This document shows positions 17,529 to 32,893 of a stretch of 64,000 nt of DNA, piece after piece. Both the position numbers and the translations under genes were made by a program. The stretch's first letter is position 1; each line of letters opens with the position of its first letter. The notes under the pieces are model-generated. The model saw nothing but the letters and a program-made list of their open reading frames with translations, made no database searches and had not been told where the DNA came from. Source of the stretch: a gamma proteobacterium HdN1 (GTDB taxonomy: Bacteria; Pseudomonadota; Gammaproteobacteria; Pseudomonadales; Ketobacteraceae); contig FP929140.1 of NCBI GenBank assembly GCA_000198515.1, positions 2,640,527 to 2,704,526 of the forward strand, given 5' to 3'.

Positions 17529-17604
17529 CGAGCGCTCCAAAAGAAGATATACCGGAAAAAGGCGCGCCGCAGTGCGCCGCCTAAAACCTGCGCTAAACGC
17601 GTTG

Positions 17605-17635
17605 TATAACCTGTTGTTCCTCTGTAGAATAACAG
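17605..17635 (+). promoter_or_regulatory. Possible promoter and operator of the TetR gene
   Basis: TATAAC at 17605-17610 is a possible -10; no good -35 was found. Directly after it, 17611-17635 forms an imperfect inverted repeat (CTGTTGTTC and GAATAACAG, 8 of 9 pairs, 7-nt centre). Its position fits autorepression by the TetR protein that starts at 17686. Confidence 0.4.
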
Positions 17636-17685
17636 CGTTTCAGTGTATAGCTGGCCATCGCAGTAGTTTTTGGGTGTTTGATATC

Positions 17686-18414
17686 ATGGAAAATCAGCAA
17701 GATACAGTCAATCAGCGTTCTTTGGATGAGCCGCAGGATAATGCGTTTGTTTCCGCCCTGCTAAAAGAAACGGAGCGCGAACTGGATGGCAGCGAGCCAT
17801 CTGCCTTTCCAGTGCCCGGCCAGAGTGCGAAGGCAAACGTGTTGTTCTATTCCATTGGTGTCTTTGCGCGCAAAGGAATTGCAGATACTACTGTGCAGGA
17901 TTTGCTGGAAGCAGCAAATGTTTCGCGCCGTACCTTTTACAAATATTTCAAGAACAAGGTAGATGTGCTGGAATGCATCTATGAGATCGCGTCCAATCAG
18001 CTGATTGGTCGTTTCCGTGCTGAGATGAACCTTGATAGCGTGTCGGTATTTGTCGTGCGCTGCGTTGGCTTGTATTTCGACTATCACACTACGCTTGGCC
18101 CGCTGGTTCGAATGATGACGGAAGAAGCACGCCGTTCAGACTCGCCTCTCGCTCAGCATCGCGAAAAAACCATTGATCATCTTGTGCGCCTGTTTAACGA
18201 TAAATACGTCGAAAAAGTGGGTGTACACCTTGATTTGCAGGTCTATTATGCGCTGATTTGGGCGATGGAGAGTGCCAGCATTCATTTGCTGACCAATACA
18301 AAATGCACTCATGAAGACGTAGAGCGCTGTAAGAGCGTAATGGCCGCAATTGCTGCGCGCGTTATGGTGAGTGATCCCGACGAGGCGATTCCGTTGCCTA
18401 CCGTTAGTGCCTAA
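17686..18414 (+). CDS. TetR-family transcriptional regulator
   Basis: 242-residue regulator. After a 45-residue acidic N-terminal arm, the TetR helix-turn-helix spans about residues 50-95: GVFARKGIADTTVQDLLEAA then NVSRRTFYKYFKNKVDVLE. The C-terminal ligand domain has no obvious relative here. The ATG at 17686 was chosen because the preceding 38 codons cross the likely promoter. It follows fpr by 157 bp and is probably transcribed alone. Ligand and targets are unknown; the arm before the helix-turn-helix is longer than usual. Confidence 0.88.
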   Translation: MENQQDTVNQRSLDEPQDNAFVSALLKETERELDGSEPSAFPVPGQSAKANVLFYSIGVFARKGIADTTVQDLLEAANVSRRTFYKYFKNKVDVLECIYEIASNQLIGRFRAEMNLDSVSVFVVRCVGLYFDYHTTLGPLVRMMTEEARRSDSPLAQHREKTIDHLVRLFNDKYVEKVGVHLDLQVYYALIWAMESASIHLLTNTKCTHEDVERCKSVMAAIAARVMVSDPDEAIPLPTVSA

Positions 18415-18455: not shown

Positions 18456-18503
18456 TCAAAGCCTTTTGAGTCAAAGCCTGTTAAGTCAAAGCCTCTTAAG
18501 TCA
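18456..18503 (-). repeat. 15-bp tandem repeat with in-frame stop codons
   Basis: Three 15-bp units (TCAAAGCCTnTTnAG on the plus strand, 1-3 differences) plus a partial fourth. Read on the minus strand in the frame of the DUF1653 gene, the gene's own TGA (18501-18503) is followed by TGA every fifth codon at 18486, 18471 and 18456. It lies between two convergent genes. Confidence 0.85.
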
Positions 18504-18755
18504 ATCCGGCGCAACCCATTGAAAACGCGACGTAAGCACGCCGTCGCGTTCTACATAATCCACGAACTCTCGCAGCGATCGTAACCAAAGTTCCTGCTCT
18601 CCGTATAAAGCGCGATATACTGCATAAACTTCCTCGGTATCGCAGTGCCGCGCGACGCCGATGACTTGGTAGTAGTTTCCTTTGAAGTGCCGATAGATGC
18701 CTGTGCGCAAGGTTGTGGGTTCAGTGCTGGCGGTGTCGGTGGTTCGCGATTTCAT
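18501..18755 (-). CDS. DUF1653 family protein
   Basis: 84-residue protein with a DUF1653 domain: GIYRHFKGNYYQVIGVARHCDTEE (start about residue 18), VYRALYGEQELWLRSLREF, and the end RFQWV. These are the family's conserved blocks (YRHYKG, HSET/DTEE, YRALYG, WVRP). The ATG at 18755 fits the family length; a 42-codon upstream extension is poor in family-like sequence and crosses the divergent promoter region. Small soluble protein of unknown role. The 3' end runs into the 15-bp repeat. Confidence 0.85.
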   Translation of the reverse strand: MKSRTTDTASTEPTTLRTGIYRHFKGNYYQVIGVARHCDTEEVYAVYRALYGEQELWLRSLREFVDYVERDGVLTSRFQWVAPD

Positions 18756-18857
18756 TTGAGTGTGCTTATGGCTTTTGCGGGGCTTGGCAAAAACGGCGGG
18801 CAGTGCGGGGCCGAGTTTTGCGTAACAAGGGGCTGTTGGTTGGTGCGTGGCGGGCGA

Positions 18858-20789
18858 GTGCCTTGTTTGGTTGTACCGCAATCTCTCGGTCAGGTAAAGC
18901 GCTGTTGTTCACGTTTGGTTTTCGTGGGCCTGCCAAGCCTTCTTCTTTTGGCAGTACTTTGTTTCGCTGGTGCCGGGGCTCATGCGGCAACGCCACGCGC
19001 TGAGCTTGCGCAGCCTCCAAGTGTACAGCTGCGCTATTTGCTTGATGCAGACCACAGCCTGAATATTTCAGCGATTCTTGCAAATCCGGACATACTGCCA
19101 TGGCAGGCAAAGAGCGCCGGTTCGCTCGGCCTTGGTTTCCGTGATGGAGCGGTATGGCTGAGAGTCGATGTGCAAAGCGCATCTAATATTGATGATTGGT
19201 TGCTGGTTGTAGAATTCCCCTTGTTGCGCGCGCTGGATGTTTTCGTGGTGCGCGCTGGCGTGTTGGATCAAGTGTTTCAAACTGGGGATCGGTTTGAGTT
19301 TGCGGCCCGCCCGATTGAGCATCGAAACTTTGTTTTTCCAATTCAGATCAGTGCGCAGAATGCAGCTAGCACCACGCTCTACTTACGTATCGAAACACCT
19401 TACTCTATGGTTTTTCCTGTGTATTTCGCACAGGCGGATGATTATTTACAGGGGCCGCACTATGTAACCTGGCTCTTTGGCATACTTTGCGGCATCCAGC
19501 TGGGAATGGCGTTATACCATTTGCTTGTGTTTGCATTCGTGCGAGATATTAGTTATCTGTTTTACGCGCTGTTTGCGCCGGCAATCCTCTTGGTTTTTAC
19601 TGCACAACAGGGGTTTGGCTATCAATACCTCTGGCCGGAGGCAATTTGGTGGCAGCAAAAGGCGATGTTGTTTGGGTTGCTGTGGAGTGTGGCAATTGGC
19701 TCGGTTTTTGTGATTTCCTTCTTGCGCATCCATCGTCATCGCCACAACTTGTTTATCGTGCTGCTTTGCCAGCTATTTGCGATTGCAGTATGCGCACTAC
19801 TCGCGATTTTTGTCGATAGCCCATTCTTGGTTGAGATAAGCCATTACCTGATTATGTTTGCTGCGAGTTTTTGCTTGTGGTGCGGCATTGTTTTGTTGCG
19901 GGAAGGTTTGCGCGACGTGCGCTTTTTTGTTGCGGCTCTCATGGTGTTGGTGACGGCTACGGTGCCGTACTGCCTGTCAGCCCTCGGTTATATTGATTAT
20001 TCCTCCAAGTGGATTTACGGAATGGAGATTGGCGCTGCCATTCAATCTTTGCTGCTTGGTGTTGCGCTTGCGGATCGCTCGAACCGAGAGCGCCGATTGC
20101 GCTTGATGCGTGAGGAGGAGATTCAGGGCTTGCATGTCCACATCGACCAGCTACAGGAACGGGCACAAGAGCGTGAGGAGGGTCTAGAGAAGCGCATGTC
20201 ACGAAAACTCGAGGAGCAATCTCGTGAGCTGCACGAAGCGTTGGAAGTGGCTGCACTACTGAGACGGAAGCTGGAATCTATCAGCCAATTGGACGAGGTG
20301 ACCGGACTTCGCAATCAAAACTACTTCTTTGAGTTACTGCATCGGGAATGGGATCGTGCCTTACGCGAACAGCGCGAGCTTAGCCTAATGGTCATTGAGC
20401 TAGATGATTTTTACGAGATTGGTGAGCGGTACAGTGTCGTTATACAAGAGGAATGCTTAAAGGTGGTTGCCAAGCTGTTGCAGGATACGTTTAGCCGCCC
20501 GGCGGACGTGGTGGTTCGTTATGGTGACAAAGTATTTGGTGTTCTGCTTCCTGAGACAGGGTCGCAAGGGGCGCGCCAGCTCGCCAATATACTTCGCTCA
20601 AAAATCAGGGATGCGGACTACGATTTTGGTTTTGGTAAAATCACACTCTCTTTGAGCGTCGGTATCGCGACTTGCAAGCCTTCTGCGAAGCGTAATTTTA
20701 AGGATATGCTAGAAACCGCCGAAAGTGCGCTTTATGTGGCGCACAGTAACGGCGGTGGTCAGGTGCAGCATGCGGCAACGTTAGCGTGA
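18858..20789 (+). CDS. 7TMR-DISM sensor with degenerate GGDEF domain
   Basis: About 643 residues from a GTG start; an ATG at 18768 would add 30 codons but leaves only 12 bp to the divergent DUF1653 start. Domains in order: signal peptide (VKRCCSRLVFVGLPSLLLLAV), periplasmic 7TMR-DISM extracellular domain (about 45-200), seven membrane helices (about 205-400), a coiled coil (about 410-475) and a GGDEF-fold domain. In that domain the motif GG(D/E)EF reads GDKVF (20523-20537) and the KxxND region reads YEIGE, so diguanylate cyclase activity is very unlikely. The product-binding I-site RxxD, five residues before, is kept as RPAD (20496-20507). It probably works as a c-di-GMP-binding sensor. Confidence 0.85.
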   Translation: MPCLVVPQSLGQVKRCCSRLVFVGLPSLLLLAVLCFAGAGAHAATPRAELAQPPSVQLRYLLDADHSLNISAILANPDILPWQAKSAGSLGLGFRDGAVWLRVDVQSASNIDDWLLVVEFPLLRALDVFVVRAGVLDQVFQTGDRFEFAARPIEHRNFVFPIQISAQNAASTTLYLRIETPYSMVFPVYFAQADDYLQGPHYVTWLFGILCGIQLGMALYHLLVFAFVRDISYLFYALFAPAILLVFTAQQGFGYQYLWPEAIWWQQKAMLFGLLWSVAIGSVFVISFLRIHRHRHNLFIVLLCQLFAIAVCALLAIFVDSPFLVEISHYLIMFAASFCLWCGIVLLREGLRDVRFFVAALMVLVTATVPYCLSALGYIDYSSKWIYGMEIGAAIQSLLLGVALADRSNRERRLRLMREEEIQGLHVHIDQLQERAQEREEGLEKRMSRKLEEQSRELHEALEVAALLRRKLESISQLDEVTGLRNQNYFFELLHREWDRALREQRELSLMVIELDDFYEIGERYSVVIQEECLKVVAKLLQDTFSRPADVVVRYGDKVFGVLLPETGSQGARQLANILRSKIRDADYDFGFGKITLSLSVGIATCKPSAKRNFKDMLETAESALYVAHSNGGGQVQHAATLA

Positions 20790-21119
20790 GCCATCAACCT
20801 CTTCACGTTTGGCGTCTAGTCCTTTTTCCTTGATAACGTTATCTACATGCTTTGCATCTTCGATGGCTTCGAAAACATCGCTCGCCATATCGCCAATCAA
20901 ACGATTGATTTCACGGATTTTGTCGTAGACATAACCAATCGGTTGTAGCGCCAAGTCCTGCTTTTTTTGCAAGTCGTCTTCTAAAAGGCCAGACCGCGCA
21001 GCGACCTCAAAGGGAATTCGTGCAATTGCTTTGTGGACTTCTTCAACGCTGGTTGCGCCTTTGTCGATCGCTTCTTGGACCATATCTTTCAGCATTTCAA
21101 GGCGACTTAACAACGCCAT
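20781..21119 (-). CDS. Helical protein, function unknown
   Basis: 112-residue mostly helical soluble protein, MALLSRLEMLKDMVQEAIDK at the start, then TSVEEVHKAIARIPFEV and IGYVYDKIREINRLIGDMAS. No membrane segment or signal. The start at 21119 has AAGGAG six bases upstream; longer starts lack a site. Its last 9 bp overlap the end of the convergent sensor gene. It lies 154 bp downstream of the protein coupled to the desaturase, on the same strand, so it may belong to that unit. I do not recognise the family; amphipathic helices would fit a surface- or lipid-associated protein, but this is a guess. Confidence 0.6.
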   Translation of the reverse strand: MALLSRLEMLKDMVQEAIDKGATSVEEVHKAIARIPFEVAARSGLLEDDLQKKQDLALQPIGYVYDKIREINRLIGDMASDVFEAIEDAKHVDNVIKEKGLDAKREEVDGSR

Positions 21120-21273
21120 GGGCATCTCCTTAATGACCGTTTTCATTTTACTTTTGCAGCTTCGGTGAGAGCTCAAGTGTTTACGAACTAGTGTTTACAA
21201 GCTAGCACTTATGAGCTCTGGCTCTGCGAGTCATATTGTAAAGGTTTTGCCGCAAGCGGAAATGCCTAAACGT

Positions 21274-21807
21274 CTAATCTTCGTCTTTATGAGTGAGAAA
21301 TTTTATGTTCCCACGATGCTCTAACGCACCCAAAAGCTCCGCAATGGCGAGCCCGAGCCGGTTATTGATTTCCCTTAGAAACTGGTAACGCTGATTGATA
21401 CGCTGGTGGCGCAGCGCTGTCAATGCCTTGGCATCTCCGACTGGTTGGTCATTGCTTTGCTCACGGCTGGCGGAAAAATTATCGAAGATTTTATGTAGGT
21501 CTTCAACGAGCGTAATAAAGCGATCCATGCCTAAATTCAGGAGGTTGCTGTATACCAAGGCGGTGTGTGCGCTGCTGCTTTGCGCGCTTTCGCCGCTATT
21601 TTTATTTTGCAGAGAATTGTTATTCTTGACGGGTGTTGCGTTTGCTTTGTGGGTTTTTTTGTCGTTATCGCTGCGGCGCTCGGCGCGTGGGTATGCCCAC
21701 GCGCCTAACGATGCTTGGTAGTCCTTCGGCGTTTTTTGCGAGAGGTGCTCGCTACGAGAAGCGGTGGAGCGTGGTTGTACGGATTCAGAATGAATTTTGT
21801 GGTTCAT
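21274..21807 (-). CDS. Unknown protein translationally coupled to the desaturase
   Basis: 177-residue protein. The first 75 residues are polar and low-complexity (many Ser, Asn, Lys, His), probably disordered. The rest is helical: ALVYSNLLNLGMDRFITLVE, then RINQRYQFLREINNRLGLAI, ending in a charged tail. Its ATG overlaps the desaturase stop as ATGA, so translation is coupled. No known domain was recognised; the helical half is loosely phasin-like in character. Third gene of the reductase-desaturase unit and a reasonable candidate for a partner of membrane-lipid desaturation. Confidence 0.65.
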   Translation of the reverse strand: MNHKIHSESVQPRSTASRSEHLSQKTPKDYQASLGAWAYPRAERRSDNDKKTHKANATPVKNNNSLQNKNSGESAQSSSAHTALVYSNLLNLGMDRFITLVEDLHKIFDNFSASREQSNDQPVGDAKALTALRHQRINQRYQFLREINNRLGLAIAELLGALEHRGNIKFLTHKDED

Positions 21808-22871
21808 GATAAAAGTGCCTCGGGCTTGGGAGGGGTGGAAAATGCCAGCACCCGCCGCAGTACGGTTTTGTATTGATCAAAGAAACCGCCTGTGTTGTAG
21901 GGTAGCTGGTGTCTTTCGCAGATTTCCCGAACTTTTACGGACATTTCAGGGTAGCGCCAAGCGGGAATGTCTGGAAATAGGTGGTGTTCGATTTGGTAGC
22001 TAAGGTGGCCGCTCATCATGTGCAGCAGTTTTCCACCTTCAAAGTTAGAGGAGCCGCGTAGTTGCCGGAAATACCAGTGGCCGCGTGATTCGTTGGCGCA
22101 TTCTTCTTCGGTGAAGGTTTCTGCGGATTCGGTAAAGTGGCCACAAAAAATAATCGTCGAAGCCCACAGGTTGCGCGTCAGGTTTGCAAGCATATTGCCC
22201 AGCAATACCTTTAGGAAGAACGGCCCGGCTAATAGCGGGAATAGCACATAGTCTTTGAAAACCTGTTTGCCGCTTTTACGGAAAAATTCCTTGAGGAATG
22301 GTTTTTTGTCTTTAAGGGTAATTTCGCCACGGCGAATTTTTTCAAATTCAAGCTCGTGCAATCCTACGCCCCACTGAAATAAAACACTTAGCAGAAAGTA
22401 GTAAACGAGTTGAATTCGATACATCGGGTGCCAAGGCGTGTCGTTCGATAGGCGCAGTAATGCGTATCCGTAGTCACGGTCTTTTCCGACGATATTGGTG
22501 TATGTGTGATGCTCATAGTTATGGGTGCGTTTCCAGCTGGCGGCGTCGCATACGGTATCCCATTCCCATGTGGTGGAATGGATGCATGTATCATTCATCC
22601 AGTCGTATTGGCCGTGCATGATGTTGTGGCCAAGCTCCATATTTTCCATGATTTTTGCGACGCTAAGAGCCGCAACGCCGGCGCTCAGGCCGATAGGGGT
22701 AAAGCTAAATTGTAAGAGTACGCGGCCGATTACTTCCATGGTGCGCTGTTGGCGAATTACTTTGCGAATGTAATTCGCGTCGCGTTCGCCAAGATCTGCG
22801 CGGATTTGGTCGCGCAGTGCATCAAATTCGTGTGCCAGTTGGTCCAGTACTTCTTTGGATGGCGTATTCAT
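21804..22871 (-). CDS. Membrane fatty-acid desaturase
   Basis: 355-residue integral membrane di-iron desaturase that introduces a double bond into an acyl chain, probably acyl-CoA delta-9. All three histidine boxes are present: His82/His86 in GHNIMHGQ, His117/His121/His122 in THNYEHHTY and QIEHH at 293-297. Hydrophobic regions lie at about 50-80, 155-172 and 205-245. The third box in the QxxHH form is usual for DesA/linoleoyl-type front-end and acyl-CoA desaturases. It starts 28 bp after the reductase gene and ends overlapped with the next gene. The operon is probably repressed by the divergent FabR/DesT-like protein. Confidence 0.92.
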   Translation of the reverse strand: MNTPSKEVLDQLAHEFDALRDQIRADLGERDANYIRKVIRQQRTMEVIGRVLLQFSFTPIGLSAGVAALSVAKIMENMELGHNIMHGQYDWMNDTCIHSTTWEWDTVCDAASWKRTHNYEHHTYTNIVGKDRDYGYALLRLSNDTPWHPMYRIQLVYYFLLSVLFQWGVGLHELEFEKIRRGEITLKDKKPFLKEFFRKSGKQVFKDYVLFPLLAGPFFLKVLLGNMLANLTRNLWASTIIFCGHFTESAETFTEEECANESRGHWYFRQLRGSSNFEGGKLLHMMSGHLSYQIEHHLFPDIPAWRYPEMSVKVREICERHQLPYNTGGFFDQYKTVLRRVLAFSTPPKPEALLS

Positions 22872-22899
22872 TGAAAACAGAGTCCTTGTTTTGCGATGA

Positions 22900-24039
22900 T
22901 TAAAGATCTAGGGTGATTTCGGTTTCTGGAACGCTGATGCAGAGCTGGATAATATCTTCGCCTGCATCGGAAATTTCGCCGGTAAGAAGATTGCGAACGC
23001 GCCCTTCGGTTTTGCGGCATTTGCAGGTGTGGCAAATCCCCATCCGACATCCGGAGGGTGGATTCAGGCCGGCTTGTTCTGCGGTTTCCAGCAAGGTTTT
23101 TCCAGTGCTCGCATCCAGAATTTGGGAGGAATTCAGCAGGCGTAACGGATGGCTGCTTGGGTTTTCCCTATTAGACGCAGGTAATGCCAAGCCACCAAAT
23201 GATTCCGTTGTGATAGCGATTTCGTTGAGGTCGACGGATTCCAGCATTGATTTTGCGTTGACTTCAAATCCGCGCGGCCCGCAGATATAAATTTGCGTTG
23301 GCTTGCGATTTTCGAGCGCCTTTTCCATGTGGGAAAGACAAATACGCCCTTGTAGAGATGCGCGTCCGCCTGCTTCCCTCGTGTTGGCGACGAGAAGGCG
23401 AAGGCGCGGCGAAGCTTTGGCAATCGCGCGCAGCTCGGGTAAAAAAATATGCTCGTCTTTGCTGCGTGCGTAATAGAGCACGGTGACAGGCATGGTGAAG
23501 CCTTCTTCGACGAGCTGCCTAATGTGTGACATCGCGGGTGTGATTCCGGAGCCTGCGACCAGATAGAGCAGGGTGTGTTCTAGATCGGCGGGTAGTAAAA
23601 ATTCACCTGCAGAAGGAGAAATGTTTACTCGCGCGCCGATACGCATCTCATCGTGCAAGTAGTTGCTAAGCCGTCCATCTGGGTTGCGTTTTACGGTGAG
23701 CGCAAGGGTTCCGGTGGTTCGAAAGCGATGGGGCGTCGACGCGATGGTGAATGTTCGTACCAAGTAGCGCCCGTTCACCTGAACCGACAGGCTGACGTGC
23801 TGGCCGGCCTGAAAACCTTTCCAGCCGTTTTCGGGGCGCAGAATAAATGTTTTGGTATCCGCAGTTTCGGTGTAAATCCGTTCGAGTGTTGCGACGGTTC
23901 CGCCGGGTACCCAGTCGGGATCAATCGCTTGGAAAAATGGCGCAAAGTAGTCACTTGCTGTGCGATCGGTGAACACTGCGTCTCGAAACCAGTGGCGGAT
24001 GCGTGTAGTTGTGTGGCGTAAACCTGAATGAGTTTCCAT
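22900..24039 (-). CDS. Flavin/[2Fe-2S] reductase for the desaturase
   Basis: 379-residue electron-transfer protein: FAD-binding barrel (about 45-150, with LVRTFTIAS), NAD(P)-binding domain (about 150-275, with YLVAGSGITPAM) and a C-terminal plant-type [2Fe-2S] ferredoxin domain with Cys331, Cys336, Cys339 and Cys367. The plan equals that of the reductases paired with acyl-CoA desaturases (P. aeruginosa DesC, M. tuberculosis Rv3230c). First gene of the desaturation operon; its start lies 20 bp inside of a FabR/DesT-like operator. It passes electrons from NADPH to the desaturase at the inner membrane. Confidence 0.9.
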   Translation of the reverse strand: METHSGLRHTTTRIRHWFRDAVFTDRTASDYFAPFFQAIDPDWVPGGTVATLERIYTETADTKTFILRPENGWKGFQAGQHVSLSVQVNGRYLVRTFTIASTPHRFRTTGTLALTVKRNPDGRLSNYLHDEMRIGARVNISPSAGEFLLPADLEHTLLYLVAGSGITPAMSHIRQLVEEGFTMPVTVLYYARSKDEHIFLPELRAIAKASPRLRLLVANTREAGGRASLQGRICLSHMEKALENRKPTQIYICGPRGFEVNAKSMLESVDLNEIAITTESFGGLALPASNRENPSSHPLRLLNSSQILDASTGKTLLETAEQAGLNPPSGCRMGICHTCKCRKTEGRVRNLLTGEISDAGEDIIQLCISVPETEITLDL

Positions 24040-24058
24040 ACTTCCCTCTCTTGTTGAT

Positions 24059-24095
24059 GTGTACAGTTGTACACTTGTGAGTGATCGCTTGTCAA
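24059..24095 (-). promoter_or_regulatory. Desaturation operon promoter with FabR/DesT-like operator
   Basis: On the minus strand TTGACA (24090-24095) and TACAAC (24066-24071) are 18 bp apart. The -10 lies within a perfect palindrome, GTGTACAGTTGTACAC (24059-24074), which has the GTACAnnTGTAC core of E. coli FabR boxes. Repression by blocking the -10 is the likely mode. Confidence 0.7.
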
Positions 24096-24272
24096 CAAAC
24101 TAGGTATATGGATTTGTAAATCAAAAATTATGTATATAAAAAACATAGAGTTACGGTTGTTTCGGATGTGTTCATATGGACACTATAAAGCCTGCTTTGT
24201 GTGGTCGCGCCTAGGAGCTTGTAGAGTTTTTGTTCGTCTTGCGCAATCAGACCTCAAGAGGCGGGCGTTTTT

Positions 24273-24288
24273 GTGTACAATTGTACTT
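24273..24288 (+). promoter_or_regulatory. Second FabR/DesT-like operator
   Basis: The core GTACAATTGTAC (24275-24286) is a perfect 12-bp palindrome of the same form as the operator at 24059. It contains TACAAT, a good -10 for the regulator gene, and lies about 30 bp before the regulator's probable GTG start, which fits autoregulation. Confidence 0.6.
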
Positions 24289-24316
24289 TCTGCAAGCTGC
24301 AGTATTGGGGGTGGTT

Positions 24317-24955
24317 GTGAGGCGCGTTGAGAAAAAAGTGCATACTCGGCAGGCGTTGATGTTGGCGGCCTTACAGTTGGTAGAGGGCGGGCAGCATTTT
24401 TCGAGTTTAAGTATCCGCGAGATCACCCGCCAAACAGGGGTTGTTCCGACATCCTTCTATCGACATTTTCGCGATATGGATGATTTGGGTTTGGCGTTGG
24501 TGGATGAGCTAAGCATGATTCTTCGCCAGCTCATGCGTGAGGTGCGCGAAAGTCAGGCCAATGCCGCGAAACCTGAACAATTGATTCGCCATTCGGTGGA
24601 TTTTTTTATGCAGCAGGTGGATGCGAATCGAGGGATTTTTGTGTTTCTCACGCAAGAACTTACTGGAGGTTCGGTGGCGGTGCGGCAAGCGATTCGTAGT
24701 GAATTGAACTTTTTTACGAATGAGTTGGTCTTGGATATCAATCGTTATCGGATTTTGCCGGATCTGTCGCGTGAAATGCTGGAGGCGGCGGCTTTGCTGG
24801 TAATCCAGATCGTTTCGATGGCAATTGTCGAGTGGCTGGACACTGCGCAGACGCTGGCAAGCCAACGCGAAACCATTCGCCAGCGGATCGTGCGGCAAAC
24901 GCAGCTGACCTTTCTGGGGGCGTCTCACTGGAAGGAAAAGGAAAAAACTGTCTAG
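24317..24955 (+). CDS. FabR/DesT-like TetR repressor of unsaturated lipid synthesis
   Basis: 212-residue TetR-type regulator. The N-terminal helix-turn-helix covers about residues 8-55: TRQALMLAALQLVEGGQHFS, SIREITRQTG and VVPTSFYRHFRDMDDLGLAL, which is the sequence style of FabR and DesT. The C-terminal domain should bind acyl-CoA and judge saturation. GTG at 24317 is used because a GGGGGTGG ribosome-site-like stretch precedes it and the product then begins just before the DNA-binding domain; a TTG at 24305 is possible. Divergent from the reductase/desaturase operon, with a GTACAnnTGTAC site on each side. Confidence 0.85.
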   Translation: MRRVEKKVHTRQALMLAALQLVEGGQHFSSLSIREITRQTGVVPTSFYRHFRDMDDLGLALVDELSMILRQLMREVRESQANAAKPEQLIRHSVDFFMQQVDANRGIFVFLTQELTGGSVAVRQAIRSELNFFTNELVLDINRYRILPDLSREMLEAAALLVIQIVSMAIVEWLDTAQTLASQRETIRQRIVRQTQLTFLGASHWKEKEKTV

Positions 24956-25135
24956 GGTTCGGGTGGCGATCGGCTGCTTTTCGAAGTGGCATTCTGCGAT
25001 AACGGGTTTCCGCGGGAATTGCTTGCACCAAGTGTATTGTTGGTTACACTTTGGTGGCCGCTATCAGATGAGGATGTCGCATTGAACAATTGTCGGGTGG
25101 GTTGCCAGCAGTTTCGGCAACAAAGTTCGCTTTTT

Positions 25136-26332
25136 ATGGCGCCTCTTTTGTTTGTGGTGCTCGCGCTTTTGTTTGTGGTGCTCGCGCTTGGTGGCTGCGG
25201 TGCTGGTGAAGCGAAGTCATCAAGCCCCTCGCCTAGCGCAAAACAGCCGCCAGCGGTTGAAACCACTCTGCTTAAAACCCAGCCCTTGGAGCTTACGGAA
25301 CGTCTGCCGGCCCGTATTGTGGCATCGCGCATTGCGGAGATTCGCCCACAAGTAAGTGGTCTGATTTTGCATCGCTATTTTGAGGAAGGCGCTAAGGTTC
25401 GCGAAGGTGACAAGCTCTATCAAATTGACTCTGCACTCTACGAAGCCGCGCTCGCCAGTGCTCAAGCGCAGCAGAGTGTAGCCGAAGCAAATGCAGATAT
25501 TGCCCGCCTGAAAGTAAAGCGTTATCGAAAAATCGTTGGCAGCCAAGCAGTGAGCGAGCAAGATCTGGACGATGCCGAAGCACAGGCGCGCCAAGCGGAC
25601 GCGCAGGTGCGAATGGCAAAAGCTGCGGTGATGGCTGCGCAGGTAAACCTGAACTACACCTTGATTCGCGCACCCATTTCCGGCGTGATTGATCGTTCCG
25701 TGCTCACGGAAGGCGCGCTGGTCACTGCGCAGCAAGCGGTGGCGTTGACTACGATTCGGCAGCTTGAGCCGATTTATGTAGATATTCAGCGACCAGTGAT
25801 TTCCTCAGAGACGAATGTGCCCCACTCTTTAGACGTTACGCTGGAGTTGGTTGGCGGGCGCATTTATCACGAGACGGGCAAGCAAAGCTTTACTTCTGCA
25901 AGCGTTGATCCCGGTACGGGGAGTGTGGTTGTGCGCGCACGTTTTGCTAATCTGGATGGCGTTTTGTTGCCGGGGATGTTTGTGCAGGCGCAGATTTCTG
26001 GACGACACCTGGATCACGCGTTACTGATTCCTGAAGTTGCGGTTGTGCGCCAGCCCAATGGGGTTACTACCACCTTTGTGGTGACGGATCAGGACAAGGT
26101 TGAGCGACGTGTGATCAAGATTTCACAAGCGGTTGGCAATCAGTGGTTGGTGTTGGATGGCCTGAAGGAAGGTGAGCGCGTAGTGACGAGCGGCATCCAG
26201 AAAATCAGTAACGGCGATACCGTCATCCCTGTAGACGCAGCGAGTGAAAATCAAGCAGGGCAAATCGCTTTGCCCACTCAGACTTTGTCTACTCAGACTT
26301 TACCCACTCAGACTCTATCCACTCAGAACTAG
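25136..26332 (+). CDS. RND adaptor lipoprotein (AcrA/MexA-like)
   Basis: 398-residue periplasmic adaptor, with hydrophobic leader and lipobox LGGC (Cys21). Domains follow the AcrA/MexA plan: lipoyl half with [15 protein letters not shown] (about 58), helical hairpin (about 100-160), second half [15 protein letters not shown], then beta-barrel and membrane-proximal domains. The hydrophobic core of the leader contains a perfect 21-bp duplication (LLFVVLA twice), and the last residues are a 15-bp repeat encoding TQTL(S/P). ATG at 25136 is chosen since the 50 codons upstream cross the region after the regulator. It precedes its permease by 14 bp. Confidence 0.93.
25145..25186 (+). repeat. Perfect 21-bp tandem duplication in a signal peptide
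   Basis: CTTTTGTTTGTGGTGCTCGCG occurs twice with no mismatch (21 bp each), adding seven residues (LLFVVLA) to the hydrophobic core of the adaptor's lipoprotein leader. Being perfect, it looks recent. Confidence 0.95.
26276..26329 (+). repeat. 15-bp tandem repeat at the adaptor C-terminus
   Basis: Three 15-bp units beginning ACTCAGACT plus a 9-bp partial unit, each coding TQTL(S/P), end directly at the TAG stop. The repeat makes a short polar tail not found in typical adaptors. Confidence 0.9.
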
Positions 26333-26346
26333 GGCGCGAAACGATC

Positions 26347-29300
26347 ATGGCTAGATTTTTTATTGATCGTCCCATTTTTGCCTGGGTGCTCGCAATTCTC
26401 ACTATGCTGGCGGGTGCGCTTTCTCTGTTAGAGCTGCCGGTACAGCAATATCCCGATATTGCTCCACCACAAGTGCGGATTTCCGCGAATTATCCAGGTG
26501 CGTCTGCAAAAAACATTGAGGATAGCGTTACCCAGATCATAGAACAGAATATGACAGGTTTGGACGGCCTGCTGTACATGTCGTCGCAAAGTACAAGCTC
26601 CGGCAATATCAACATCAGCCTCACCTTTGCGCCAGGCACGAATCCTGATATTGCACAGGTGCAAGTGCAAAACAAGCTTTCGCTTGCGGAACCTTTGTTG
26701 CCTACCGAGGTGCAGCAAATGGGGATCATGGTGACCAAGGCGTCGTCGTCTTTCTTTATGATCGTCGGCTTGGTATCCACTGACGGAAGCATGACGCGCA
26801 ACGACCTGTCCGATTACGCGAACAGCTATGTAAAAGAGCCGCTATCACGAACTCCCGGCGTTGGAGAATTGCGAGTTTTTGGGGCTCAATATGCCATGCG
26901 AATCTGGTTGCAGGCGGATAAGCTCAATGCCTATGGCCTGACACCTTTGGATGTGAAGGCGGCTTTGGGTGAACAGAACAGCCAGTTTGCCGCAGGCCAG
27001 CTCGGTGCGTTGCCGGTGGTGAAGCATCAGCAGCTGAATGCAACTGTTATTGCGCAAACGCGTTTGGAGAGTGTGGAGGAATTCAAGAATATCCTTCTCA
27101 AGGTCAATCCCGATGGCTCTCAAGTGCGGGTTAAAGATGTCGCACGCGTGGAATTGGGTGGTGAAAACTATAACGCAGAGAGCTTTTATAACGGCAAGCC
27201 CGCAACGGGAATTGCCATCCAGCTATCGACTGGTGCGAATGCGCTTGATACGGCCAAGGCAATACGTGCTCAGATAGAGCAGCTGCAAAAATTTTTCCCG
27301 CATGGTGTCGAGGCGGTATACCCATTTGACACAACACCTTTTGTGCAGATTTCCATTAGTGAAGTATTAAAAACGCTGGTAGAGGCGATTGTGCTGGTGT
27401 TTTTGGTGATGTTTTTATTTCTGGGTAATTTTCGCGCTACCTTGATCCCAACGATCGCCATTCCAGTTGTATTGCTGGGGACGATCGGAGTGATGGCGGC
27501 GGCGGGCTTTTCAATCAACACCTTAACCATGTTCGGGATGGTGCTTGCCATCGGCTTGCTGGTGGATGATGCGATTGTTGTGGTGGAGAACGTGGAACGT
27601 ATTATGGATGAGGAGGGGCTTTCGCCGAAAGAAGCCGCTCGCAAGTCCATGGATCAGATTACCAGCGCGTTGGTGGGGATTGGTCTGGTACTTTCTGCGG
27701 TATTTGTGCCGATGGCATTTTTGGGTGGTTCCACCGGCGTAATTTACCGGCAATTTTCGATTACCATCGTGACGGCGATGGGCCTATCGGTGTTGGTGGC
27801 GATTGTTCTAACGCCAGCCTTGTGCGCAACTTTGTTGAAGGCGAGCGATGTCGGAAACGCATCGCAACGGCGTGGATTTTTCGGTGTGTTTAATCGTTGG
27901 TTTACCCGCGTTACCCACGGCTATGTGGGCAGCGTGAATTTCAGCATTCATCGGCCGCTGCGGATGATGGTGATCTATGCGGTGCTGGTAGGCGGGCTTG
28001 CAGTACTCTATTTGCGGATGCCCACCTCATTTTTACCCGTAGAAGATCAGGGGGTAGTGCTCAATTTGGTTCAATTGCCACAGGGGGCCACAATTTCTCG
28101 TACCGTAAAAGTGCTGCAGCAGGTTCGCGAGCACTATGAAAAAGAGCCCTCAGTGATGTCAATTTTTCAGGTGGCAGGATTTAGCTTTGCAGGCCAAGGG
28201 CAAAATATGGGGCTTGCTTTTGTGCGCCTGAAGGACTGGAGCGAACGCAAAGACCCTTCGCAGTCGGCCAATGCCATACTTGCGCGTGCAAAAAAAGCCT
28301 TTGCCAAAATTAAGGATGGCAAGGTGAATCCAATTAACCTTCCGCCAATTCCGCAATTGGGCACTGCATCTGGTTTTGACATGATTTTGCAGGATCGCAA
28401 TAGCCTCGGGCACGATCGTTTGATGGAAATTCGCAACCAACTGGTTGAGTTGGCAGACCACGACGCGCGTCTGCAGAACGTGCGCGCAAATGGAATGGAA
28501 GATGTGCCGATCTTCAGGATTGATATTGATTACGAAAAAGTGAAAACGCTCGGCCTAAGTATTGCGAGCGTGAATCAGACCTTGGGCACTGCTTGGGGCG
28601 GTTCCTATGTGAATGATTTTATTGATCGTAACCGCGTGAAAAAAGTGTATCTCCAGGCGGATGCGCCTTTCCGGATGGTGCCGGAAGATATTGACAAATG
28701 GTATGTGCGTAACGATAAAAATCAGATGGTACCGTTTTCTGCATTTACTACAACACGCTGGGACTATGGCTCCCCACGGCTGGAGCGGTTTAATGGAATT
28801 CCTTCTGTAAATATTCAGGGTGAGGCCGCCGAAGGGCAGAGCAGTGGCGAAGCGATGGCGGTCATGGAGGCATTGGTGCAGCAAATGCCCGATGGCGTGG
28901 GCCTTGAATGGACGGGAATGTCCTATCAGGAACGTGTTGCTGGCTCACAAACGCCGTTTTTGCTGGCGATTTCCCTGTTAACCGTGTTTCTATGCCTTGC
29001 CGCCCTCTACGAAAGCTGGTCGGTGCCGTTCTCGGTGATGCTGGTTGTTCCGCTCGGCGTTTTTGGCGCGTTGCTGATGGCCTTATCGCGGGGCTTGAGC
29101 AATGATGTGTATTTTCAGGTCGGGTTGCTTACTACCATTGGGCTTTCTGCCAAGAACGCGATTTTGATCGTGGAGTTTGCCAAAGAGCAGGTGGATCAGG
29201 GCAAAGAGTTATTTTCTGCCGCCATTGATGCAGCGCGTTTGCGGCTACGCCCGATCATTATGACCTCGATGGCGTTTGTGCTTGGTGTGTTTCCCCTTGC

Positions 29301-29484
29301 GATTAGTAGCGGTGCAGGCGCAATGAGCCGGCAAGCCATTGGCAGCGCTGTGATTGGTGGGGTCTTGGCAGCTACCTTTTTGGCGATCTTTTTTGTGCCG
29401 CTGTTTTATGTGTTGGTGATGAAGCTTAGCTTCTGGATGCGCGGCGTAAAACCAGCCCAAGCCCACCCAGTAGAGCGCCTGTAA
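26347..29484 (+). CDS. RND multidrug efflux permease (AcrB/MexB-like, HAE1)
   Basis: 1045-residue inner-membrane proton-driven pump. It starts [20 protein letters not shown] like AcrB, continues [14 protein letters not shown] and [13 protein letters not shown], and carries the relay motif [16 protein letters not shown] (about 400-415) and FVPMAFLGG. Twelve membrane helices and two large periplasmic loops are evident. It pairs with the adaptor 14 bp upstream and should export hydrophobic drugs through a TolC-type channel that is not adjacent. The last 59 bp overlap the convergent rhombosortase-like gene. The close FabR/DesT-like gene does not obviously control it. Confidence 0.97.
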
Positions 29485-30040
29485 TCGCACCGTAAAAATG
29501 TGCATCGTAGGCGACTCTGCCCTCAATTAACTGCTCCATGAGGTTGTCTTGCGTACCAAATAGCTGCTCGTAGCTGACTTTTGCGATCACATACAGCAGA
29601 AAAACGCCGGAGATCAGCGGCGTTTGTCGGAATCCCAGAATCAGGTGATGTACCAGCACACTGTAGATGGCCCCTGAAAGGCCCACATACCAGCTGATTT
29701 CTGGGTTCCACCAGAAAATTCCCATGCCCACACAAGCCATGCTGATCAATAGCACGGTAATTTCTCGCCATGCAGAGACTTCGTTTCGAAAGCTTAGGCT
29801 TACGATGCCGAATCCAGCAGCATTTAGCAGCGCGTGCCAGCCGTTCAAGTGTACGATCTGGCTGGTCCAAATGCGCCACCACTCGCCCGCACGAACGCCC
29901 TCACGAGTGAGTGATAACGCTTGTACCACGCTTTCAGGCATCAGGCTGAAGATCAGCACTAAGCCCACTACGAATGCAGTGGACCAGTGCTTTTTTTCTT
30001 GCGCAAGCCAGCGCTGGAGGGTGCGCTTGGAAATCGGCAT
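29426..30040 (-). CDS. Rhombosortase-like rhomboid protease
   Basis: 204-residue membrane serine protease of the rhomboid family. The conserved loop [20 protein letters not shown] holds His64/Asn66/His69/Asn73, the nucleophile is Ser122 in [10 protein letters not shown] and the catalytic His is His181 in [15 protein letters not shown]. Short length, six membrane helices and the ending match rhombosortases, which process proteins with a GlyGly-CTERM tail; here the residues after GLSG are AIYS rather than VLHG. No GlyGly-CTERM substrate was seen in the window. The start lies 15 bp after valS, and the 3' end overlaps the RND permease by 59 bp. Confidence 0.75.
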
Positions 30041-30055: not shown

Positions 30056-32893
30056 TCAAATGCTGCGAATCCGCTCGGCCTGCTCTTGCAGGGTACGAAT
30101 GGCGGCACGTGCATCTTCTAGCTTTTGGCGTTCTTTTTCTACTACGGCCGCTGGTGCTTTATCGGCGAATGCGGGGTTGTTTAGCTTGGTTTCGCCGCGC
30201 TGGATGTCGGCTTCCAAACGGCCAATTTCTTTGCCAAGGCGAGCAAGCTCTGCGTCCTTGTCGATCAAACCGGCCATTGGAATCCTCACTTCCAGCGTGC
30301 CAACAAGTTGCGTTGCAGACATCGGCGGCTCGATGTGATCTTCCAGCCATTGCAGGCTTTCCACTTTGGCGAGGGTTTTCAGGAAGGCAAGATTGCGTTC
30401 GCTGCGCTCCCGATCGCGCGTATCGCCTTTTTGTAGAAGCACAGGAACAAATCGGGCGGGCGAGATATTCATTTCACCACGAATCTGGCGAACGGCAAGA
30501 ATCAGCTGCTTGAGCCATTCCACGTCCTGAGTTGCCTCGGCATCCACTTGCTGTTCGTCGGCTTTGGGCCACGGTTGCAACATGATGGTCGCGCCCTGTT
30601 TGCCTGCGAGTGGCGCGATGTTTTTCCAAATAGATTCAGTAATAAACGGAATCATCGGGTGCGCCATACGCAGAATGGTTTCGAGTACCTGAACCAAAGT
30701 GCGGCGTGTGCCGCGTTTGGCGGCGTCGCTGGCGGATTCGGAATTGAGTACGGTCTTGGAGAGTTCCAGATACCAGTCGCAGTATTCGTTCCAGACAAAA
30801 TCGTATAACGCTTGCGATGCGTGATCAAAACGATATTCGTCCAGTGCCTTGCTGACTTGCTGCTGCGCGCTGGCAAGCTGCGAGAGAATCCAGCGATCAA
30901 CGATGGAAAGCTCTACGTCTGCGCTGTTCAAACCGCAATCCTGACCTTCGGTGTTCATCAGAACATAGCGGGCTGCGTTCCAGATTTTATTGCAGAAGTG
31001 CCGATAACCTTCGAGGCGCGCAATATCGAATTTAATATCGCGGCCGGTGGAGGCGAGCGATAAAAAGGTAAAACGCAGGGCATCGGTGCCGTAAGAGGCA
31101 ATGCCTTCCGGGAATTCCTTGCGGGTGCGTTTTTCGATTTTTTCCGCATCTTTGGGCTGCATCAGGCCCGTGGTACGTTTGCTGACGAGGGTTTCCAAGT
31201 CGATTCCGTCAATGATGTCGAGTGGGTCGAGCACATTGCCCTTGGATTTCGACATCTTTTTGCCTTCCGAATCGCGCACGAGCCCGTGAACATAGACGGT
31301 CTTAAAAGGCACCTGAGGCTGGCCGTTTTCGTCCTTGATGAAGTGCATGGTCATCATGATCATGCGTGCCACCCAGAAAAAGATAATATCGAATCCGGTG
31401 ACTAACACTTCGGTTGGGTGGAAGGTGCGAAGTTCTGGCGTCGCTTCTGGCCAGCCCAAGGTTGAGAAAGTCCAAAGCGCGGAGCTGAACCAAGTGTCGA
31501 GTACATCGTCGTCTTGGCGCAGAGTGGTTTCTTCAGGAATGGAATAGTGTGCGCGAACTTCTTGCTCGCTGCGGCCAACATAGACTTTGCCTTGCTCGTC
31601 GTACCATGCGGGAACACGGTGGCCCCACCACAATTGGCGGGATATGCACCAGTCTTGGAGGTTCCGCATCCAAGCGAAGTACATGTTTTCGTACTGCTTG
31701 GGCACAAACTGGATTTGGCCTTCTTCTACTGCGCGAATGGCAGGCCCGGCCAAACCTTCGGTGCGCACATACCACTGGTCTGTGAGCCACGGTTCGATCA
31801 CGACGTTGGAGCGATCGCCGCGCGGTACTTTTAGCGTGTGCGGGTCGATTTTTTCGAGCCAGCCTTCGGTTTCGGCTTGTTCGACGATCTTTTTGCGGGC
31901 GACAAAGCGGTCGAGACCAGCGTAGCCTTCGGGACATTTTTCGCCGTGCAGAAGTTCGTAGCTGCCGAAGGTGAGCACGGTAAAATCCGCCAGAATCGCG
32001 GCGTTACGATCCAATACGTTGATCAGCGGCAGGTTGTGGCGTTTGCCTACTTCGTAGTCGTTGAAATCGTGTGCGGGCGTGATTTTGACGCAGCCGGTGC
32101 CGAAGTCTTTGTCGACGTAGGTATCGCCAACAACCGGAATTTCGCGGTGGGTTACGGGTAGGCGAACGGTTTTGCCGATCAGGTGTGCGTAACGCTCATC
32201 TTCTGGGTGAACCGCGACGGCGGTATCGCCCAGCATGGTTTCGGGGCGGGTGGTTGCCACGGTTAAGTGGCCGCTGCCGTCGCTAAGCGGGTAGCGGAAG
32301 TGCCACATGGAACCTTGTTCTTCTTCACTCAATACTTCGAGGTCGGAGATTGCGGTGTGCAGGCGCGGGTCCCAGTTGACGAGGCGTTTGCCGCGATAGA
32401 TCAAGCCGTCTTCGTAGAGGCGTACAAATACCTCTTGAACGGCGTTGGAGAGGCCCGCGTCCATGGTAAAGCGCTCGCGTGACCAGTCTACAGACGATCC
32501 TAAGCGGCGAATCTGGCGGGTGATGGTACCGCCAGATTGTTCTTTCCATTCCCAGATTTTGTCGAGAAACGCGCTACGCCCTAAATCGTGACGGGTAATC
32601 CCTTGGGCCGCGAGCTGGCGCTCTACTACCATTTGCGTTGCAATGCCGGCGTGGTCGGTACCGACTTGCCAGAGGGTGTTTTCGCCTTTCATGCGGTGGT
32701 AGCGGATCAGCGTATCCATGATGGCATTGTTAAAGCCGTGGCCCATGTGGAGGCTGCCGGTCACGTTGGGCGGCGGAATCATGATGCAGTAGGGGCGGCC
32801 TTGGCCGGAAGGCTTGAAAAATCCTTCGCGTTCCCAGTGCTGATAAGTGGCGGTTTCGATTTCTTCGGGGCTAAAGGTTTTTTCCATGGTCAT
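30056..32893 (-). CDS. valS: Valyl-tRNA synthetase
   Basis: 945-residue class I synthetase that charges tRNA-Val. Class I signatures are clear: [15 protein letters not shown] (HIGH-type, N-terminal) and KKMSKSKGN (KMSKS). The connective editing domain includes [17 protein letters not shown], and the C-terminal 70 residues form the typical coiled coil ([20 protein letters not shown]). Length is normal for bacteria. It is upstream of the rhombosortase-like gene and divergent from the LVIVD lipoprotein. A possible -10 TATACT lies at 32957-32962 on the minus strand. Confidence 0.98.

Follow-up and report, generated by a model that had tools for sequence, protein, structure and literature searches.

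The window analysed here is the whole stretch of 64,000 nucleotides from the gamma proteobacterium HdN1, whose genome (4.59 Mb on a single contig) was the sole representative of its genus in the 15 family genomes that were searched. On its forward strand it carries a gene for a predicted 7TMR-DISM membrane sensor ending in a degenerate GGDEF domain. The genes at this locus and the domains of the encoded protein were as follows.

17572-18414, forward strand: TetR-family regulator (Pfam), a neighbour in 9/9 flanked ortholog loci
18501-18881, reverse strand: DUF1653 gene (Pfam), also a neighbour in 9/9 flanked ortholog loci
18645-20789, forward strand: predicted 7TMR-DISM pseudo-cyclase gene, a mechanical ORF of 714 aa counted from the first GTG
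19026-19430, forward strand: periplasmic 7TMR-DISMED2 sensor domain (Pfam PF07696, E=1.5e-30)
19470-20078, forward strand: 7TMR-DISM_7TM membrane domain (Pfam PF07695, E=1e-40)
20004-20288, forward strand: long helix connecting the membrane part with the GGDEF domain (helix 373-467 of the AlphaFold2 model)
20286-20756, forward strand: degenerate GGDEF domain (Pfam PF00990, E=8.2e-30)
29426-30040, reverse strand: rhomboid gene (Pfam), downstream synteny anchor
30056-32893, reverse strand: valS (Pfam), downstream synteny anchor

Since the mechanical ORF shares its 5' part with the DUF1653 ORF of the opposite strand (18501-18881), the true start of the receptor gene probably lies later; the ORF starts of the orthologs, judged by eye, stand just ahead of a hydrophobic stretch. 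The protein belongs to the DISMED2 type of 7TMR-DISM receptors, with a DISMED2 sensor followed by the 7TM part, both far over the Pfam cut-off. The GGDEF domain likewise scored far above its cut-off, and the sensor type named in the original prediction was thus recovered. In the AlphaFold2 model of the whole protein (mean pLDDT 82.9, pTM 0.59), the sensor, the transmembrane bundle, the long helix and the GGDEF fold were all present, and the long helix may act as a coiled-coil signalling helix. In a structure comparison the modelled GGDEF domain reached Z 26.9 (rmsd 1.5 over 166 residues) with 3ign, a GGDEF structure, many other GGDEF structures being tied with it. Because active and degenerate domains matched alike (Z 21-27, FimX 25.0), these matches indicate the fold and not the ligand. 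The nearest solved relative by sequence was WspR (E 2e-27), the P. syringae form of which has RPSD at the place of RPAD.

Modelled alone (mean pLDDT 88.6), the DISMED2 sensor matched the RetS sensor 3jyb (Z 15.9, rmsd 2.8, 136 residues), and the matches below RetS were mainly jelly rolls of sugar enzymes (Z 6.4-10.4). It is the fold alone that suggests a carbohydrate-type ligand, and a common fold does not by itself reveal what is bound. For the DISMED2 domain of the active cyclase NicD, the extracts of two papers differ, one citing carbohydrate binding and the other glutamate sensing, and a review, also in extract, places DISMED2 among the sensor domains with a predicted rather than validated role.

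The gene order TetR, DUF1653, receptor, rhomboid and valS was found in all nine flanked loci (L061-L069; the genes of G002 and G005 stood outside this check). Between the receptor and the rhomboid-valS anchor, positions 20781-29484 of the window hold other genes that were not seen there in the nine flanked ortholog loci. Among these are a desaturase, ferredoxin-reductase and TetR group (its TetR assigned by Pfam), which we take to resemble DesB-DesC-DesT, and presumably an efflux-type gene pair. The small gene at 20781-21176 on the reverse strand was ruled out as an operon partner, since it is convergent and homologs of its product lie elsewhere in relatives. In three genera a gene for a protein of about 393 aa, with a long C-terminal part and a weak receiver-domain match below the cut-off (L063:4347-5528 and L061:3154-4332), lies next to the receptor gene, flanked by TetR and DUF1653; there was no copy at the window locus and a remote match only (E 1e-13) elsewhere in the window genome. 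This pseudo-response-regulator was also rejected as an operon partner, because there was none in G005 and in L066 it was not located between TetR and DUF1653. The corresponding locus of G012 comprised TetR, the pseudo-response-regulator, DUF1653 and a rhomboid-like ORF (by eye) with the receptor absent, which indicates that the receptor gene is dispensable and can be lost.

A profile search in which up to 91 candidates were scored per genome yielded 12 orthologous genes in 11 of the 15 family genomes, the 11 other proteins being 29-37% identical to that of the window. As two of the genes come from one assembly (G009), they do not amount to 12 independent lineages. One ortholog-bearing relative is a Ketobacter sp. 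(L063), and the family genomes without an ortholog were G012, G013, G011 and G001, the last three being 91%, 87% and 54% complete, respectively. When the best three candidates per genome were considered for 390 genomes of the order, the 12 orthologs scored 819-986 bits and the rest at most 532, the latter value belonging to a GGEEF protein of G025; in 369 genomes of the class, again with the best three candidates of each, nothing but the gene of the window reached E<=1e-150. A contig scan gave ten loci; one of these, L070 (Rhizobiaceae), matched in nothing but the GGDEF part and was set aside as non-orthologous. The 12 dead-domain orthologs formed one clade (ultrafast bootstrap 100); with its stem counted, the tree length was about 6.6 substitutions per site. 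They were compared with 30 canonical 7TMR-DISM paralogs (29 GGEEF, one GGEEM), which are the top-scoring matches and not a random sample. Left out of the comparison were L050, the longest ORF of which lacks a GGDEF at the place, and L051, the domain of which was masked, as well as L061-L069, L071-L082, L086, L087, L097 and L098 as repeats of genes already used; L046 has an in-frame stop and was entered with its longest open piece alone.

The residues on which the interpretation of the GGDEF domain depends were located as follows.

20355-20357, forward strand: Arg at the PleD R313 position (R in 12/12 orthologs and 16/30 canonical paralogs)
20364-20366, forward strand: Arg of the same helix at the position that we assume, in residue number and role, to be that of WspR R198 (R in 12/12 orthologs and 26/30 paralogs)
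20397-20399, forward strand: Glu replacing the metal-binding Asp (PleD D327; E in eight and S in four of 12 orthologs, D in 30/30 paralogs)
20421-20423, forward strand: Gly replacing the guanine-binding Asn (PleD N335; G in five, L in five, V in one and I in one ortholog, N in 30/30 paralogs)
20496-20507, forward strand: RPAD, the I-site motif RxxD (12/12 orthologs)
20523-20537, forward strand: GDKVF, the degenerate active-site motif (GDKVF in 8/12 orthologs, E(V/I)A(Q/M)F in 4/12)

Positions 20496-20537, in frame with the ORF 18645-20789, read CGC CCG GCG GAC GTG GTG GTT CGT TAT GGT GAC AAA GTA TTT, that is, RPADVVVRYGDKVF. The original prediction had described GDKVF in place of GG(D/E)EF with RPAD at the right distance and a changed substrate-binding Asn region, and both descriptions agree with the sequence: between the D of RPAD and the signature there are five residues, the same spacing that the consensus of 122 aligned GGDEF rows shows (RPSD-TVARY-GGEEF), and the window protein has Gly at N335 and Glu at D327. 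It therefore lacks the combination of GG(D/E)EF, metal Asp and guanine Asn that marks an active diguanylate cyclase. Replacement of the equivalents of PleD D327, N335, G369, E370 and E371 was found in all 12 orthologs, whereas the canonical paralogs carried D, N, G, G, E and E at the key places in 30/30. Within the signature the orthologs had G (eight) or E (four) at the G368 place, D (eight), V (three) or I (one) at G369, K (eight) or A (four) at E370 and V (eight), Q (three) or M (one) at E371. The co-conservation of GDKVF and RPAD that the original prediction proposed to look for was borne out in part: RPAD and the loss of the catalytic places extend to all 12 orthologs, but GDKVF itself is common to eight, which are 33-37% identical to the window protein, while the four genes of genus g4 diverged otherwise.

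From these replacements we infer that the GGDEF domain is catalytically inactive. The idea that it might still make c-di-GMP by means of an unusual active site draws on reports, seen in extract, that some degenerate signatures are active, as in the AGDEF cyclase VCA0965, and on the partial retention of other places, F372 being kept in 12/12 orthologs and D344 being Asp in eight of them (Glu in the other four, including the window protein). Since none of the 12 has kept the metal, guanine (N335) or catalytic residues, a loss that goes past the first Gly, this idea is extremely improbable. At the K442 place the eight orthologs possessing the segment had Lys (four), Gln (three) or His (one), and with F372, D344 and K442 partly kept, some residual nucleotide binding at the active site is possible; the R446 place was Gly in these eight, the other four being without the segment. 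Those four (L039, L040, L041 and L052, genus g4) lack in the aligned ORFs the end of the GGDEF domain, which in active cyclases bears K442/R446, and yet RPAD is retained.

The I-site motif followed a different course. Apart from RPAD, no stretch of the protein has four or more successive residues unchanged across the 12 orthologs, and the codons of RPAD varied synonymously over the 12 genes, the Arg being encoded by CGC, CGG, CGA and AGA. Loss of the RxxD from orthologs had been named beforehand as the outcome that would count against the reading, and it occurred in none of the 12. Chance and a pseudogene were ruled out by the open ORF, by RPAD in 12 and GDKVF in 8 of 12 distant orthologs and by the synonymous codon variation. 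The I-site of PleD is described, in the extract of a paper, as four residues, namely the RxxD pair, R390 and an R313 given by the dimer partner. At the R390 place the orthologs were variable (R in four, K in three, E in three, Q in one and I in one, the last being the window protein). With an active site that is inactive by its residues and an RxxD five residues before the signature, the domain has, as judged from its sequence and fold, two of the features expected of a dead-GGDEF I-site receptor; the supporting I-site residues are split, with Arg at the R313 place in 12/12 orthologs and at the R390 place in 4/12.

Invariance of this kind has to be read against the domain as a whole. Across the 12 orthologs 31 of the 161 domain columns were invariant, and when the invariance mask was slid round the domain, four invariant RPAD columns were obtained in the real placement only (1/161). 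For R and D together with the R313 place, 3/161 placements matched, and for R and D alone 9/161 did as well, the real one included; the invariance of R and D alone is only modestly unusual. A Fisher test (three of four I-site against none of 11 A-site positions), being post hoc, carries no weight here. In rate percentiles within the domain, the dead clade was slower than the canonical paralogs at R359 (12-15 vs 36-37), x360 (25-27 vs 79-80) and x361 (2-4 vs 65) and faster at G368 (52-53 vs 17-20), G369 (62-63 vs 17-20) and E371 (47 vs 7-8). D362 had an equal rate rank in both sets and was invariant in all 30 paralogs, those without the Arg included, so that its retention says little. The Arg place itself was R in 19, W in nine and H in two of the 30 canonical paralogs, and this loss from 11 of them indicates that the fold has no need for the Arg.

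An RxxD is ordinary in GGDEF domains, being carried by 24 of the 27 canonical domains of the window genome. In hand tallies of the window genome and G002 together, it was kept in 6/11 domains in which the signature, D327 and N335 are all changed (three apparent ortholog pairs) compared with 55/77 canonical domains, and the notion that retention of RxxD alone proves function was rejected on these counts. RPAD might also be a mere leftover, maintained through structural constraint or slow turnover and without a function today, and the same 6/11 and the 31 invariant columns speak for this. Against this stand the freedom of the Arg to change in relatives (11/30) and the depth of the clade, at about 6.6 substitutions per site, over which codons turned over and residues did not, and we regard a mere leftover as improbable. 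Two REC-GGDEF proteins of the same genome also look dead and keep RxxD (L104:130-1323, G000:C1 1116178, RQED with GLARF; L108:520-1674, G000:C1 1011984, RPLD with GINEF), with apparent counterparts in the Ketobacter-like G002 (L166, RKED with GLARF; L175, RPLD with SNEQF); the proteins of L104 and L108 are further candidate c-di-GMP receptors.

Since the active site is lost and the I-site motif kept in all 12 orthologs, the receptor probably reads c-di-GMP instead of making it. We lean, with considerable reserve, towards a conserved pseudo-diguanylate cyclase that would be an I-site reader of the nucleotide in the manner of PopA and SgmT, built into a RetS-like 7TMR-DISM receptor. According to extracts of the published accounts, PopA of Caulobacter and SgmT of Myxococcus use the I-site of a dead GGDEF domain to bind c-di-GMP and resemble the window protein in having a degenerate active site with an intact RxxD, SgmT having GGGVF with RHPD, kept in homologs of six myxobacteria. 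Both differ in that their c-di-GMP binding has been demonstrated and that of the window protein is predicted only, and in architecture, PopA having a REC-REC-GGDEF layout and SgmT being predicted to be a cytoplasmic kinase that contains a GAF domain. PelD of Pseudomonas aeruginosa is, like the window protein, membrane-bound with a dead GGDEF domain and an RxxD, which in PelD is the c-di-GMP site, but it is described in its extract as TM-GAF-dGGDEF acting on the Pel polysaccharide, with no 7TMR-DISM part. NicD of P. aeruginosa has the same DISMED2-7TM-GGDEF architecture as the window protein but is reported, again in extract, to be an active diguanylate cyclase.

The nearest architecture tested elsewhere is RgsP of Sinorhizobium meliloti, which according to the extract combines a 7TMR-DISM part with a dead GGDEF domain (GGDQF) and an intact RxxD, differs by a PAS and an active EAL domain, and in which the PAS-GGDEF portion showed no c-di-GMP binding in DRaCALA. 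In Shewanella PdeB an inactive GGDEF domain is described, also in extract, as docking to HubP through its far C-terminus and a degenerate I-site region that forms part of the contact. In view of these two cases the intact motif is a lead and not proof, and the I-site surface of the window protein could instead serve for the docking of a partner protein, the receptor passing its outside signal on with no nucleotide involved. The invariance of P and A of RPAD alongside R and D would suit a protein contact as well. The I-site of PdeB is degenerate, however, whereas in the window family the canonical R and D are retained together with the Arg of the partner helix, and no conserved partner gene was found at the ortholog loci, the pseudo-response-regulator being weakly matched and far off in the window genome; docking is accordingly an unlikely explanation, though one that we take more seriously than a leftover.

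A further alternative, which we consider improbable, is that the protein is a dead subunit acting in trans, pairing with active 7TMR-DISM cyclases and braking them through its I-site and c-di-GMP, those paralogs lacking the I-site Arg included. Possible partners are numerous: counting the window protein itself, the window genome has at least five 7TMR-DISM cyclase matches at 1e-40, and genomes of the Ketobacter-like genus have at least 15-23, these counts being lower bounds from the best 23 candidates scored in each genome. Nine of the 30 paralogs have W at the I-site Arg, and six of these (L055-L060) carry Arg at both helix places, the other three (L042, L053 and L054) not having Arg at both. 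In the window genome, on the other hand, three of the 27 canonical GGDEF domains are without RxxD and none of these has W. As an observation in its own right, the nine W-bearing paralogs (L042 and L053-L060) carry WPSD, WPTD or WPAD where RxxD would stand, with the catalytic motif kept, and are thus a mirror image of the window protein.

For the preferred reading as an I-site reader of c-di-GMP, the following course of events may be proposed. The protein would have originated among 7TMR-DISM cyclases and lost catalysis before the genera of the family split, and would later have been retained as a membrane receptor with the dead GGDEF domain as its sole cytoplasmic domain. The c-di-GMP would presumably come from the cell's other cyclases, 27 of the 42 GGDEF domains of this genome being canonical. 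Binding could take place at the I-site between two dead GGDEF domains, with the RPAD of one subunit and the helix Arg of its partner, and might lock or release the dimer; the change would then travel along the long helix and reach either the 7TM part or a partner protein, in a direction that we can only suppose.

An extension of this reading that we put forward tentatively, and hold to be rather doubtful, is a two-faced receptor in which DISMED2 reads an outside ligand and the dead GGDEF domain reads c-di-GMP, the two being compared across one 7TM dimer. Such a coincidence detector would resemble LapD, which is not known to be a 7TMR-DISM protein, with a dead cyclase replacing the dead phosphodiesterase, and might also lend its I-site to sister cyclases without theirs. 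As described in the extract of its account, LapD of Pseudomonas fluorescens is an inside-out membrane receptor for c-di-GMP with a dead catalytic domain, so that the logic may be shared, but it reads the nucleotide with a dead EAL domain.

Dead-GGDEF receptors (PopA, SgmT and PelD) and the active form of the architecture (NicD) are already known, and in the open-licence literature searched no report was found of a 7TMR-DISM protein with a dead GGDEF domain as its sole cytoplasmic domain. The window protein bears on the rule that a dead A-site with an RxxD makes a receptor, which RgsP breaks. While 7TMR-DISM receptors couple to cyclases and kinases, this one has no recognisable enzyme and carries a candidate c-di-GMP site, and it would therefore offer a clean case of whether 7TMR-DISM receptors can take a signal from inside the cell.
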